Source of the DNA: Ramlibacter sp. PS4R-6
Lineage (GTDB): Bacteria > Pseudomonadota > Gammaproteobacteria > Burkholderiales > Burkholderiaceae_C
NCBI RefSeq assembly: GCF_037572775.1
Contig: NZ_JBBHKA010000001.1
Location: 248,001 to 312,000, forward strand
DNA length: 64,000 nucleotides
Direction: 5' to 3'
Below, one piece after another: positions 27,600 to 31,500 of this stretch. The notes beneath the pieces were generated by a model, which saw only the letters and a program-made list of their open reading frames with translations, did no database searches and was not told where the DNA came from. Both the position numbers and the translations under genes were made by a program. How positions within the stretch are numbered: the first letter of the stretch is position 1; every line of letters starts with the position of its first letter.

Positions 27600-28361
27600 T
27601 TGCCCGAAGACACCACCCGATTGAACAAGCGCATGGCCGAACTGGGCCTGTGCTCGCGCCGCGAGGCCGACGACTGGATCGCGCGCGGCTGGGTGCGCGT
27701 GGACGGCAAGCCCGCGGTCATGGGGCTGCAGGTCGCGCCGGATGCCCGCATCGAGGTCGACCCGCGCGCCCGCGGCGAGCAGCAACAACAGGTGACCGTG
27801 CTGCTCCACAAGCCGATCGGCTACGTCAGCGGCCAGGCCGAGGACGGTTACCAGCCGGCCGCGACGCTGGTGCAGGCGCGCACGCACTGGCTGGGCGACC
27901 CCAGCAAATTGCGCTACGCGCCGGCGCACTCGCGCGGGCTCGCGCCCGCCGGGCGCCTGGACATCGATTCGACCGGCCTGCTGGTGCTCACGCAGGACGG
28001 CCGCATCGCGCGCCACCTCATCGGCGAGTTCAGCGAGGTCGAGAAGGAATACCTGGTGCGCGTGACCTTCGACAACGTCGCGGCGAACGTGCAGGCGGCG
28101 TTCCCGCCGGCGCAGCTGGCGCGCCTGCGCCACGGCCTGGCCCTGGATGGCAAGCCGCTGAAGCCCGCGCAGGTGGAGTGGCAGAACCCGGAGCAGCTGC
28201 GCTTCGTGCTGACCGAGGGCAAGAAGCGCCAGATCCGCCGCATGTGCGAGCTGGTCGGCCTGAAAGTTGTCGGGCTCAAGCGCATCCGCATCGGCGGGGT
28301 GCTCCTGGGGCAGCTGCCCCTGGGGCAATGGCGGTACCTGGCCGCCCACGAACGCTTCTAA
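27600..28361 (+). CDS. rluF: 23S rRNA pseudouridine synthase, RluF/RsuA family
   Basis: Isomerises a uridine in ribosomal RNA to pseudouridine. An N-terminal S4 RNA-binding domain (LNKRMAELGLCSRREADDW, about residues 8-26) precedes the catalytic domain with GRLDIDSTGLLVLT, where the Asp is the nucleophile, and the C-terminal EGKKRQIRRMCELVGLKV block. The sequence fits RluF (U2604 of 23S rRNA) better than RsuA, but this is judged by eye. The start is uncertain: I chose TTG 27600 because it gives the normal N terminus, but no strong ribosome site is visible and ATG 27633 would cut into the S4 domain. Confidence 0.8.
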   Translation: MPEDTTRLNKRMAELGLCSRREADDWIARGWVRVDGKPAVMGLQVAPDARIEVDPRARGEQQQQVTVLLHKPIGYVSGQAEDGYQPAATLVQARTHWLGDPSKLRYAPAHSRGLAPAGRLDIDSTGLLVLTQDGRIARHLIGEFSEVEKEYLVRVTFDNVAANVQAAFPPAQLARLRHGLALDGKPLKPAQVEWQNPEQLRFVLTEGKKRQIRRMCELVGLKVVGLKRIRIGGVLLGQLPLGQWRYLAAHERF

Positions 28362-28400
28362 AGTCAAACTAATGTGGGCCTAAGTCTGCATCCCTAGACT
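28357..28400 (+). promoter_or_regulatory. 11-bp direct-repeat operator and promoter of the two-component operon
   Basis: Three NCTAAN units, TCTAAA (28357), ACTAAT (28368) and CCTAAG (28379), start exactly 11 bases apart. A -10-like TAGACT begins at 28395, 16 bases after the start of the last unit, so the last repeat overlies the -35 position. The first unit overlaps the stop codon of the pseudouridine synthase gene. The same layout recurs at 30776-30830. Direct repeats at one helical turn are the usual target of OmpR/PhoB-type regulators. Confidence 0.75.
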
Positions 28401-28430
28401 CCCGCGAAACGCCGCCGAGGAGAAGAAACG

Positions 28431-28649
28431 ATGCACTCGCCCCGCTACCACCGCCTGGCCCTGGCCCTGCTCGCGCTGGCCAGCCTTGCCGCCGCCCTCA
28501 TGGCCGGCCTCGCCGTGCTCGGCATGACCCTCACGCCGCCGGTTGCCGTCGGCGCCCTCGCCCTCTTCGCCGTCCTCCTGGGCGGCGTGGTCCTGCTGCA
28601 CAACCAGCTGCGCGAAGCCCGCTGGGACGCGGGCTACCGATTGCGCTGA
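28431..28649 (+). CDS. small two-span membrane protein
   Basis: A 72-residue protein with two strongly hydrophobic segments (about residues 9-31 and 36-56), a Pro-Pro turn between them and a basic amphipathic tail (HNQLREARWDAGYRLR). A GAGGAG site lies ahead of ATG 28431. It is the first gene downstream of the repeat operator and ends ten bases before the response regulator gene, so it is co-transcribed with the two-component system. I do not recognise a family. A role as accessory sensor or kinase modulator is possible but is only suggested by position. Confidence 0.7.
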   Translation: MHSPRYHRLALALLALASLAAALMAGLAVLGMTLTPPVAVGALALFAVLLGGVVLLHNQLREARWDAGYRLR

Positions 28650-28659
28650 CAATCCAGCC

Positions 28660-29346
28660 ATGCGTGTCCTGCTGGTCGAAGACGACGAGATGATCGGCCA
28701 GAGCCTGAAACCGGCTCTGGTGGCCGCAGGCTGGTCGGTCGACTGGGTCAAGGACGGCTCACTGGCGCAAAGCGCGCTTTCCGACGGCGACTACGCCTGC
28801 GTGCTGCTCGACCTGGGCCTGCCCAAGAAGGACGGCATCGAAGTGCTGCGCCACGCGCGCAGCACGGGCGACCACACCCCCATCCTGGTGCTCACGGCGC
28901 GCGACGGCGTCGACCAGCGCGTGACCGGGCTGGACGTCGGCGCCGACGACTACCTGGTCAAGCCTTATGAACTGCGCGAGCTGCTGGCCCGCATGCGCGC
29001 GGTGATCCGCCGCCGCGACGGCGCCGCGCACTCGCTGATCGGCTCGCCGGAGCTGCAGCTGGACCTGACGACGCGCGAAGTCATCGTGCAAGGCGAGCGC
29101 TCGCAGCTGTCGCAGCGCGAGTTCGCCCTGTTGCACGCGCTGCTGGAGCGGCCCGGCGCCATCCTCTCGCGCGAACAGCTGGAAAACCGCATCTACGGCT
29201 GGGGCGAGGAAGTGAGCAGCAACGCGGTCGACGTCCTGATCCACGGCATGCGCCGCAAGCTCGGGCAGGACACCATCCGCAACGTGCGCGGCCTCGGCTG
29301 GCGCATCACCGCTCCCGCAACCGCCAGCCCGCAGGCCCAGCCATGA
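28660..29346 (+). CDS. OmpR-family response regulator
   Basis: A 228-residue response regulator. The receiver domain has the acidic pair at residues 8-9 (VEDDE), the phospho-acceptor Asp51 (VLLDLGLP), the conserved Thr in LVLTARDG and Lys in LVKPYE. The C-terminal OmpR-type winged helix has LSQREFALLHALLERPG and VDVLIHGMRRKLG with the usual recognition helix. Overall it is closest to the QseB/PmrA group. It overlaps the kinase gene by four bases (ATGA). It probably binds the NCTAAN repeats found before its own operon and before the exported protein gene at 30925. Confidence 0.9.
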   Translation: MRVLLVEDDEMIGQSLKPALVAAGWSVDWVKDGSLAQSALSDGDYACVLLDLGLPKKDGIEVLRHARSTGDHTPILVLTARDGVDQRVTGLDVGADDYLVKPYELRELLARMRAVIRRRDGAAHSLIGSPELQLDLTTREVIVQGERSQLSQREFALLHALLERPGAILSREQLENRIYGWGEEVSSNAVDVLIHGMRRKLGQDTIRNVRGLGWRITAPATASPQAQP

Positions 29347-30761
29347 TGAAGATGCATGGCGGGGCGATCGCGCACCCGCATCCCCCTTCCCATGCGCATG
29401 GCCATGGCCACACGGCCTGGCACGCGCGCGTGTTCCCCCACGGTCGCATGTGTTCGCTGCGCCGCGCGCTGCTGCTGTGGCTGGTGCCGCTGTTCCTGGT
29501 GGTCGGCTTCGCCTCGGCCGCGTTCTCGTACTTCAGCCATGGGCGCATGGTCAACGAGTTCATGGACACGCAGATGGAGCAGCTGGGCCAGTCGCTCTCG
29601 GGCCACGAAGGCGACCTGATGCCGCCGCCGCTGTCGGCCGAGCGCATCGAGAAGTGGGGCATGTACATCGTGCAGGTCTGGGACAAGGACGGCACGCTGG
29701 CCAAGTCCACCTGGCCGCAGCTGCAGGCGCCGCTGCAGGCCGGCTCCGGCTTCAGCAACGTCATGGCCGACGGCAAGGACTGGCGCGTGTACACCACCGT
29801 GGCCAGCGGCACCGGCAAGCGCGTGCAGGTCCTGCAGTGCGGCGTGTTCCGCAAGCACCTCGCGGTGGAACAGGCGGTGGCGTCGCTCGCGCCGGTGCTG
29901 ATCCTGCTGCCGCTGGCGATCTTCGTGCTGTGGGGCGTGGCGCGCGCCGTATCGCTGGCCGTCACCGACATCGGCCGCAAGGCCGAGACGCAGGACTTCA
30001 ACACCATCACCGAGCTGCCGCTGGACCGCGTGCCGCACGAGATCCAGCCGCTGGTCATCTCCTTCAACGGCCTGCTCACGCGCCTGCGCAACGCCTTCGA
30101 CGCCAAGCGCCGCTTCGTGCAGGACGCCGCGCACGAGCTGCGCACGCCGCTCACAGCCCTGTCGCTGCAGCTGGAGAACCTGCGCCGCGAGATCCCGGCC
30201 GAGTCGTGCCAGCAAAGCTTCGCGCAGCTCGAAGGCGGCGTGCAGCGCGCCACGCGCCTGGTGGACCAGATGCTGAAGATGACGCGCCAGGAGGCCGACG
30301 CGGCCGAAGCGCGCCGCGACATGGACCTGAACGCGCAGGTGCGCGAGAGCATCGGCGCGCTGATCGCGCTGGCCGACCAGCGCGGCATCGACCTCGGCGT
30401 GGCCGGCGGCGGCGCGGCGTCCGCGCCGTGGCACTGCTCGCCCGGCGACCTGCGCAGCGTGATCGACAACCTGATCGAGAACGCGCTGCGCTACACGCCC
30501 GAAGGCGGCGTGGTCGACGTTCACGTGTCCTGCATCGACGGCAAGCCCGCCATCGAAGTGATCGACACCGGCCCGGGCATCCCGCCCGAGATGATGGAGC
30601 GCGTGTTCGACCGCTTCTTCCGCGTGCCGGGCAGCGACGTGCGCGGCAGCGGCCTGGGCCTGGCCATCGCGCGCGCGGCCGCCGAGCGCTGCGGCCTGCG
30701 CATCGTGCTGCGCAACCGCACGGACCGCAGCGGCCTCGTCGCGCGCATCGAAGCCGCCTGA
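29343..30761 (+). CDS. sensor histidine kinase with His-rich cytoplasmic N terminus
   Basis: A 472-residue membrane kinase. The first 36 residues contain nine histidines (5, 11, 13, 17, 19, 21, 23, 27, 33) before the first membrane span (about 43-64). A periplasmic sensor loop of about 115 residues follows, then the second span (about 182-200), a HAMP-like linker, the HisKA block with His264 in AAHELRTPLTAL, and an ATPase with NLIENALRYTP, DTGPGIPPE and GSGLGLAIA. ATG 29343 overlaps the regulator stop; the alternative ATG 29448 would remove the His-rich part but has no ribosome site. The tail suggests metal binding, which is inference. Confidence 0.88.
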   Translation: MMKMHGGAIAHPHPPSHAHGHGHTAWHARVFPHGRMCSLRRALLLWLVPLFLVVGFASAAFSYFSHGRMVNEFMDTQMEQLGQSLSGHEGDLMPPPLSAERIEKWGMYIVQVWDKDGTLAKSTWPQLQAPLQAGSGFSNVMADGKDWRVYTTVASGTGKRVQVLQCGVFRKHLAVEQAVASLAPVLILLPLAIFVLWGVARAVSLAVTDIGRKAETQDFNTITELPLDRVPHEIQPLVISFNGLLTRLRNAFDAKRRFVQDAAHELRTPLTALSLQLENLRREIPAESCQQSFAQLEGGVQRATRLVDQMLKMTRQEADAAEARRDMDLNAQVRESIGALIALADQRGIDLGVAGGGAASAPWHCSPGDLRSVIDNLIENALRYTPEGGVVDVHVSCIDGKPAIEVIDTGPGIPPEMMERVFDRFFRVPGSDVRGSGLGLAIARAAAERCGLRIVLRNRTDRSGLVARIEAA

Positions 30762-30775
30762 GCTTCGCGGCAGCT

Positions 30776-30830
30776 GCTAAGACGCAGCTAAGCCAATGCT
30801 AAGCGTCACCTAAAGACGCGCTTTTACAGT
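30776..30830 (+). promoter_or_regulatory. 11-bp direct-repeat operator and promoter of exported small protein
   Basis: GCTAAG at 30776, 30787 and 30798 and CCTAAA at 30809 form four units at exact 11-base spacing. A -10-like TACAGT begins at 30825, again 16 bases after the start of the last unit. This duplicates the geometry found at 28357-28400, so both are probably bound by the response regulator encoded between them. Confidence 0.8.
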
Positions 30831-30924
30831 GACAACACGGTCGATGCTGAAACGAATCAACAGCACCGAACGCTGTCAAGAAACTCCCTGAGTCCCTCAG
30901 TCACTGTTGAAGAAAGGTCCCATC

Positions 30925-31212
30925 ATGAAGAAGTCCCTCGTTGCCCTCGCCGCCTTCGCCGCCGTTTCCGCCTTCGCCGGCGAAATCGACTACGCCACCG
31001 TGAACGACGCGCCGGTGCAAGCCGCCGTCTCGCGCGACGCCGTCAAGGCCGAAACGCTCGCCGCCATCCGCCAGGGCCAGGTCGCCACCGGCGAAATCGG
31101 CACCGCGTTCGTCGCGAAGCAAGTGGTCGTCACGCCCCGCGTGGACAACCGCGCCGAACTGGCGCAAGCCGTGCGCCACGGCGACATCGCCTACGGCGAA
31201 GCCGGCTTCTGA
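30925..31212 (+). CDS. small exported protein, DUF4148-like
   Basis: A 95-residue protein with a clear signal peptide (about residues 1-18, ending VSAFAG) and a charged mature part. Two similar units, SRDAVKAETLAAIRQGQVATGE and NRAELAQAVRHGDIAYGE (given here as shortened blocks), resemble the repeat of the DUF4148 family, which is common in Burkholderiales and of unknown function. ATG 30925 is chosen over 30907 because the signal peptide starts there and AAAGG precedes it. It follows the NCTAAN repeat promoter and is closed by the terminator at 31239-31265, so it is the visible target of the neighbouring two-component system. Confidence 0.75.
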   Translation: MKKSLVALAAFAAVSAFAGEIDYATVNDAPVQAAVSRDAVKAETLAAIRQGQVATGEIGTAFVAKQVVVTPRVDNRAELAQAVRHGDIAYGEAGF

Positions 31213-31238
31213 TCGCCGCGCACCTCCGGAAAGCAACG

Positions 31239-31265
31239 AAGCGCCCCTCGGGGCGCTTTTCTTTT
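31239..31265 (+). terminator. intrinsic terminator
   Basis: AAGCGCCCC, a TC loop and the complementary arm (31239-31258) run into TTTTCTTTT on the plus strand. It ends the transcript of the small exported protein. Confidence 0.9.
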
Positions 31266-31278
31266 GGGCGGCCGCGAA

Positions 31279-31500
31279 TCAGCGGGTGAAGTAGAGCGGC
31301 TCCTGCGGCGCCGGCGCGACGCGCACGCGCACCGTGTCGGGCGCGGCCGCCGCCGGCTCGCGCAGCGCGAGTCGGCCCGCCATCGCACCGGGCGCGGTGC
31401 GCAGCTGCAGCGTGAGCGTATGGCCTTCCGCGGGCGCGGCGGCGGGCGCCGGTCGCGACTCGAGCGAGAAGGCCTTGAGGGGCAGCAGGTCCATGCTCAT
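31279..31500 (-). CDS. small hypothetical protein
   Basis: A 73-residue Ala/Pro/Arg-rich open frame opening MSMDLLPLKAFSLES and ending PLYFTR, between the terminator at 31265 and htpG. The mixture of hydrophobic strands (LTLQLRTAPG, TVRVRVAP) is plausible for a small beta protein, but no family is recognised and the ribosome site is weak. In this GC-rich genome such frames also arise by chance. Confidence 0.4.
   Translation of the reverse strand: MSMDLLPLKAFSLESRPAPAAAPAEGHTLTLQLRTAPGAMAGRLALREPAAAAPDTVRVRVAPAPQEPLYFTR

Follow-up and report, generated by a model that had tools for sequence, protein, structure and literature searches.

The window analysed here, a stretch of 64 kb in the 3.84 Mb genome of Ramlibacter sp. 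PS4R-6 (contig NZ_JBBHKA010000001.1, positions 248,001 to 312,000), contains on its plus strand a two-component system and the gene of a small exported protein, each preceded by an array of hexamers with the pattern NCTAAN. The first array lies in the putative promoter of the operon and consists of the units TCTAAA at 28357, ACTAAT at 28368 and CCTAAG at 28379 (28357..28384), followed by the -10-like box TAGACT (28395..28400). The operon starts with a gene for a hydrophobic small protein of 72 amino acids (aa; 28431..28649), which by eye is of the membrane type, and continues with the genes of a response regulator (28660..29346) and of a sensor histidine kinase (29343..30761), which overlap by 4 bases. 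Downstream of them, GCTAAG at 30776, 30787 and 30798 and CCTAAA at 30809 form the second array (30776..30814) in front of the -10-like box TACAGT (30825..30830) and of a gene for a 95-aa DUF4148-like protein (30925..31212), which by eye has a signal-peptide-like start. The seven units, presumed half-sites of the regulator, had been pointed out in an earlier note made from the sequence alone. All coordinates given there are correct: the units are 11 bases apart, and each box, at 28395 and at 30825, begins 16 bases past the start of the last repeat. A consensus scan of 28200-31300 revealed no sigma-70 -35/-10 pair.

The response regulator belongs to the OmpR/PhoB family, since it passes the Pfam cut-offs both for the receiver domain (80.3 bits, cut-off 30.2) and for the Trans_reg_C winged helix (69.7 bits, cut-off 26.2). 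Among the NCBIfam equivalogs it scored best with PmrA (BasR; NF007928), reaching 233 bits, under the cut-off of 330; with QseB it reached 215.5 bits, under the cut-off of 345. The best match of the kinase was QseC (192 bits, under the cut-off of 475). The best matches of the regulator among solved structures in the Protein Data Bank were BasR/PmrA, and its closest relatives among named organisms are found in Ramlibacter and Caenimonas. The recognition helix region of the regulator reads SSNAVDVLIHGMRRKLG; its core DVLIHGM is present in 39 of 43 regulators including that of the window, the other four, from Variovorax, having DVIIHNM. Judged from its sequence, the locus encodes a two-component system of the PmrA/QseB type, PmrA-like in the geometry of its repeats and in one half-site, and differing in helix and consensus. 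Very probably, this PmrA-type system would activate its own operon and the exported-protein genes through half-sites which replace the -35 box.

The DUF4148-like protein scored 26.4 bits, narrowly under the Pfam gathering score of 27 (PF13663), and in a search of the whole genome at E 0.01 it was the sole match to DUF4148 (22.5 bits). Its AlphaFold2 model is of low confidence, with a mean predicted local distance difference test score (pLDDT) of 56.4. A terminator-like hairpin with a T run (31238..31259) lies 3' of its gene. At the other end of the locus, the first unit of the operon promoter overlaps the stop codon (at 28361) of the upstream neighbour, a pseudouridine synthase gene.

For the 72-aa protein no family match was obtained in Pfam or NCBIfam at E 0.001. 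It ends with EARWD, and ARW is unchanged across six aligned sequences; versions of 72 aa or of 122-125 aa exist in relatives (L063, L064, L066, L067 and L068). A role of this small ARW protein as a modulator of the kinase is possible. The kinase itself starts with a His-rich N-terminal extension (encoded at 29343-29430), and metal sensing through it was considered and dropped, because the extension was not seen among the relatives listed.

Frequency of the arrays and their promoter register

The occurrence of the repeats is far beyond chance. The triple CTAA-N7-CTAA-N7-CTAA has three overlapping matches in the window and none in 100 dinucleotide shuffles of it. These three matches, which correspond to the two arrays, have no counterpart elsewhere in the genome, where the reversed-pattern control gave no match, and no triple was gained when CT[AC]A was allowed instead of CTAA. 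Two adjacent units combined with TANNNT at +16 (offsets being counted from where the last unit starts) are found only twice in the 64 kb, in the two promoters described above. In a genus set of 48 genomes including this one, the exact 11-bp triple was found in 33 genomes and the reversed control in 3 (triples and controls counted by hand), and some genomes hold two to four arrays. When the spacing was changed, a 10-bp triple was present in none and a 12-bp triple in two of 47 genus genomes.

These shuffle, spacing and reversed-pattern controls rule out a chance origin of the arrays. The broader notion of chance or of a mobile repeat family could draw on the simple CTAA repeats which are found at background level in other genomes of the family, but it is opposed by the same controls, by the constant distance to the -10-like box and by the recurring downstream gene, and we give it practically no credence.

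By hand count, the genus has 53 distinct exact arrays; the register was determined for 51 of them, those in G014 and G046 being left out. Each chain was lengthened by CT[AC]A units, and offsets of 8 to 30 were scanned. TANNNT was located exactly at +16 in 44 of the 51 sites and at +13 in two; no other offset was found. Among 44 aligned genus sites, the bases past the -10-like box (30831-30850 in the window), near the expected transcription start, are conserved too, with the consensus TACAGTga..tCACGGttga.

The genes behind the arrays are similarly uniform. One of the 51 sites is the operon of the window and three were without a frame under the rule used, which left 47 downstream proteins for scanning. 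A DUF4148 match at E 0.01 was obtained for 43 of them, some under the Pfam cut-off, and DUF4148 genes located elsewhere than the regulator gene had arrays as well. Three of the four proteins without such a match come from L021, where the frame is probably spurious, from L027, where a protein of 67 aa matched no family, and from L026. In the last (L026:1500-2612), a triple array precedes a gene of the sigma-70 family, RpoH-like by eye, with CATACT as the box at +16. The arrays in L021, L032 and L155 resemble each other and do not keep the -10 register. The TTAG repeats of L021 face a gene on the opposite strand, hemerythrin-like by eye, and may belong to another regulator.

The position of the arrays raises the possibility that the regulator is a repressor, its half-sites over the -35 region blocking RNA polymerase until the kinase alters its state. 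Indeed, the arrays reach into the -35 region, and OmpR-family regulators that act as repressors are known. However, no consensus -35/-10 pair able to work without an activator was found, and a -10 phase fixed in 44 of 51 sites would be expected of a contact with the polymerase, while the binding of a repressor should be compatible with other phases too. Repression thus seems improbable to us when compared with activation.

Association of the arrays with the regulator

A regulator match below 1e-100 was detected in 36 of the 48 genus genomes. The exact array was present in 30 of these 36 genomes and in 3 of the 12 without a match (Fisher p = 4e-4); the latter three genomes are 69, 80 and 85% complete.

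The earlier note had proposed to search for the repeats near orthologues of the regulator in related genomes, and there they are indeed present. In Ramlibacter, Caenimonas, Pseudorhodoferax, Polaromonas, Variovorax and Pantoea, arrays lie next to the genes of closely related regulators. Both strands were scanned over the whole length of 42 named loci (L063-L104, of 80 retained) whose regulators show an identity of 72% or more. A chain of at least three CT[AC]A units was present in 30 loci, and all 31 chains found had TANNNT in register: 23 are four-unit chains with the box at 16, and eight are three-unit chains from Pantoea with the box at 27, a distance which fits a degenerate fourth unit. 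In front of the regulator's own operon, two units with a -10-like box at +16 were found in 27 of the 42 loci (shuffle expectation 0.01), and also at 2 of 37 more distant regulators. Two alphaproteobacterial records (L106 and L109), with regulators of about 60% identity, have two units and TANNNT at +16 as well, and this promoter type may thus predate the lineage studied here.

Where the genes behind the arrays of these loci were scanned, they proved to be of several kinds. DUF4148 was found in L063, L067, L071, L074, L076, L087 and L104, and in L101 and L103 MipA genes lie behind two-unit arrays that point away from the regulator. Four Variovorax proteins (111-112 aa) and the 247-aa frame behind the array in L077 gave no match that passed a cut-off. 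In Pantoea, the array of each of the eight loci points to a frame of 122-129 aa, which belongs to the AraC family in the six cases scanned; one of these proteins is nearest to RobA, MarA, RamA and SoxS, though under their cut-offs. Thus, in Pantoea the target gene was swapped and the array retained, which suggests that the array follows the regulator and not the target. In the tree of regulators, Pantoea is placed among Comamonadaceae rows (support 83/83, with some forks open), and this position is compatible with a horizontal transfer.

Half-sites and recognition helix vary to some extent together. The four Variovorax regulators with DVIIHNM have promoters of the form TTAAC-N6-CTAAC in the same register. 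A strict coupling had to be dropped, since the first unit is TTAA in two Pantoea loci despite the usual helix DVLIHGM. The co-variation is suggestive only.

The same loci bear on the question of whether a different OmpR-family regulator, encoded elsewhere, reads the arrays, the neighbouring system being merely one of its targets. Several further regulators with 50-60% identity exist in the genus genomes, three of the 12 genomes in which no close match was detected have arrays, and the TTAA first units in Pantoea are combined with an unchanged helix, so that half-site and helix do not strictly co-vary. On the other side, the three array-only genomes are just 69-85% complete, array and regulator are significantly associated, and the Pantoea arrays remain beside the regulator despite a different target. 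We consider a foreign regulator very unlikely, and reading of the arrays by the adjacent PmrA-type system remains the preferred explanation.

Several observations nevertheless weigh against activation by that system through the arrays. Four of the 51 genus sites (L021, L032, L155 and L156) have neither the register nor a DUF4148 gene, and the exact triple is absent from 6 of the 36 genus genomes with the regulator. Twelve of the 42 loci lack a chain of at least three units, and 15 lack the two-unit promoter as defined, including 6 of the 8 from Pantoea. The genus sites are related by descent, and many of the 42 loci come from genomes of the genus set, which means that the counts are not independent. 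Outside the genus, the exact triple was found in 22 of 197 genomes of the same family and the reversed control in 37, and in other families the numbers were 2 and 16 of 32 (hand counts); beyond the genus there is therefore no excess of the triple, which stands at background level. Furthermore, the same half-sites could be readable by another regulator of the family. Finally, of 26 evaluated regions upstream of DUF4148 genes, among 30 loci of a longer list, 14 have at least three units, one has two and 11 have at most one. These 11 regions, together with the Pantoea arrays in front of another gene, also led us to reject the idea that the arrays are a property of DUF4148 genes apart from the regulator. 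The proposal of the earlier note that the regulator activates its own operon and the exported protein through the repeats thus gains from the arrays in six genera and at distant DUF4148 genes and from the fixed register, and has to be restricted insofar as the arrangement is not universal. The units with their spacing and conservation, the -10 register and the downstream genes can be read from the sequences; binding, activation rather than repression, and phosphorylation are what we infer from the regulator family.

Proposed mechanism and relation to known systems

According to the mechanism we propose, the membrane kinase would sense an envelope-related signal and phosphorylate the regulator, which would then dimerise. 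Its winged-helix domains would sit head to tail on the NCTAAN half-sites, which are spaced by one helical turn and would straddle the -35 position, the last starting 16 bp and the penultimate 27 bp upstream of the -10 hexamer. The bound regulator would bring RNA polymerase to a promoter that lacks a usable -35 box. Activation by head-to-tail dimers is best supported, since half-sites one turn apart are combined with the lack of a consensus -35 box and with a fixed -10 phase. The regulator's own operon would usually be served by two units (three in the window); four units would offer room for two dimers and drive small exported proteins, which are DUF4148 proteins in Ramlibacter. The four-unit targets would adjoin the system and in some relatives lie at further places too. 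Four units at targets and mostly two at regulatory promoters suggest a graded output, and the nature of the targets together with the kinship to PmrA points to an envelope-stress signal; this signal and the role of DUF4148 are likewise what we infer.

With doubt slightly outweighing confidence, we further propose an undescribed PmrA-type regulon of Ramlibacter and its kin which is centred on DUF4148 exported proteins. In it, the number of half-sites (mostly two at the own operon, four at targets) would set the output at a rigid 16-bp register, and the small ARW protein would be a further signalling part. Promoter grammar and regulator would persist, and the targets would be exchanged: DUF4148, unnamed exported proteins, MipA and, after a probable horizontal transfer, a MarA/SoxS-like AraC factor in Pantoea.

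Such a regulon would be of interest for two reasons. The arrays offer a natural series, with two, three or four half-sites at a constant register and a certain variation in both half-site and helix, in which promoter strength and specificity of OmpR-family regulators could be studied. Further, we know of no function for DUF4148 proteins. A promoter code tying them to a PmrA-type regulator could provide a handle on it, via the signal which switches the promoter on. One DUF4148 protein was reported as a virulence factor in Burkholderia (PMC7549894), and the domain was reported to be putatively essential in this genus (PMC8770471).

Among described regulators, the resemblance is closest to PmrA (BasR). 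PmrA governs lipid A modification and polymyxin resistance. In Klebsiella, the verified pbgP box CTTAAT-N5-CCTAAG is bound head to tail (PMC3973317). The arrays share with it the tandem hexamer half-sites 5 bp apart, i.e. the 11-bp period, and the unit CCTAAG of the window is identical to the second pbgP half-site. The differences are that all seven units of the window read NCTAAN, as opposed to the consensus (C/T)TTAA(G/T) quoted in PMC10729948, that four units are present at the target in the window, and that this target is DUF4148. In the helix of Klebsiella PmrA, His193, His195, Asn196 and Glu199 are possibly base-specific, with His193 and His195 favoured, and in the model of that paper itself Asn196 makes no contact (PMC3973317). 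By alignment, the window regulator likewise has His at the position of His195, and has Leu in place of His193, Gly in place of Asn196 and Arg in place of Glu199.

The QseBC system is similar in that the kinase is nearest to QseC and that the regulator gene precedes the kinase gene. A small exported-protein gene near a QseBC-like pair also resembles ygiW-qseBC. The QseB consensus quoted in PMC10729948, however, is not the NCTAAN repeat.

A DUF4148 gene immediately 3' of a two-component system was described for IrlR2S2-BPSS1996 and IrlRS-BPSS1038 of Burkholderia (PMC7549894). Their regulators were likened to a metal-resistance system, and promoter repeats are not mentioned in the excerpt. According to Welkos et al. 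2020, an interaction between DUF4148 proteins and two-component systems had not been identified, and the linkage may be coincidental (PMC7549894); a later study of irlR2 names DUF4148 in its reference list only (PMC13037405). The conservation of the arrays, and their presence before DUF4148 genes located apart from the regulator gene, speak against a coincidental linkage in the lineage analysed here. BesRS of Burkholderia thailandensis is comparable as a system for envelope disturbance with a MipA/OmpV gene in its regulon, and MipA genes stand behind arrays in L101 and L103, but the cis element printed in the excerpt is not an NCTAAN array (PMC9426598). A further lead to the signal comes from Achromobacter, where As(III) and Sb(III) induce a DUF4148 operon (PMC11719878).

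We found no published description of this member in the open-access literature searched; one may exist elsewhere. The earlier note knew of no described system of this composition; this does not hold for the kind, which is already known, being PmrA/QseB-like and sharing one half-site with a described PmrA box. What is new is the promoter with four units, the variant of the helix and the link to DUF4148.

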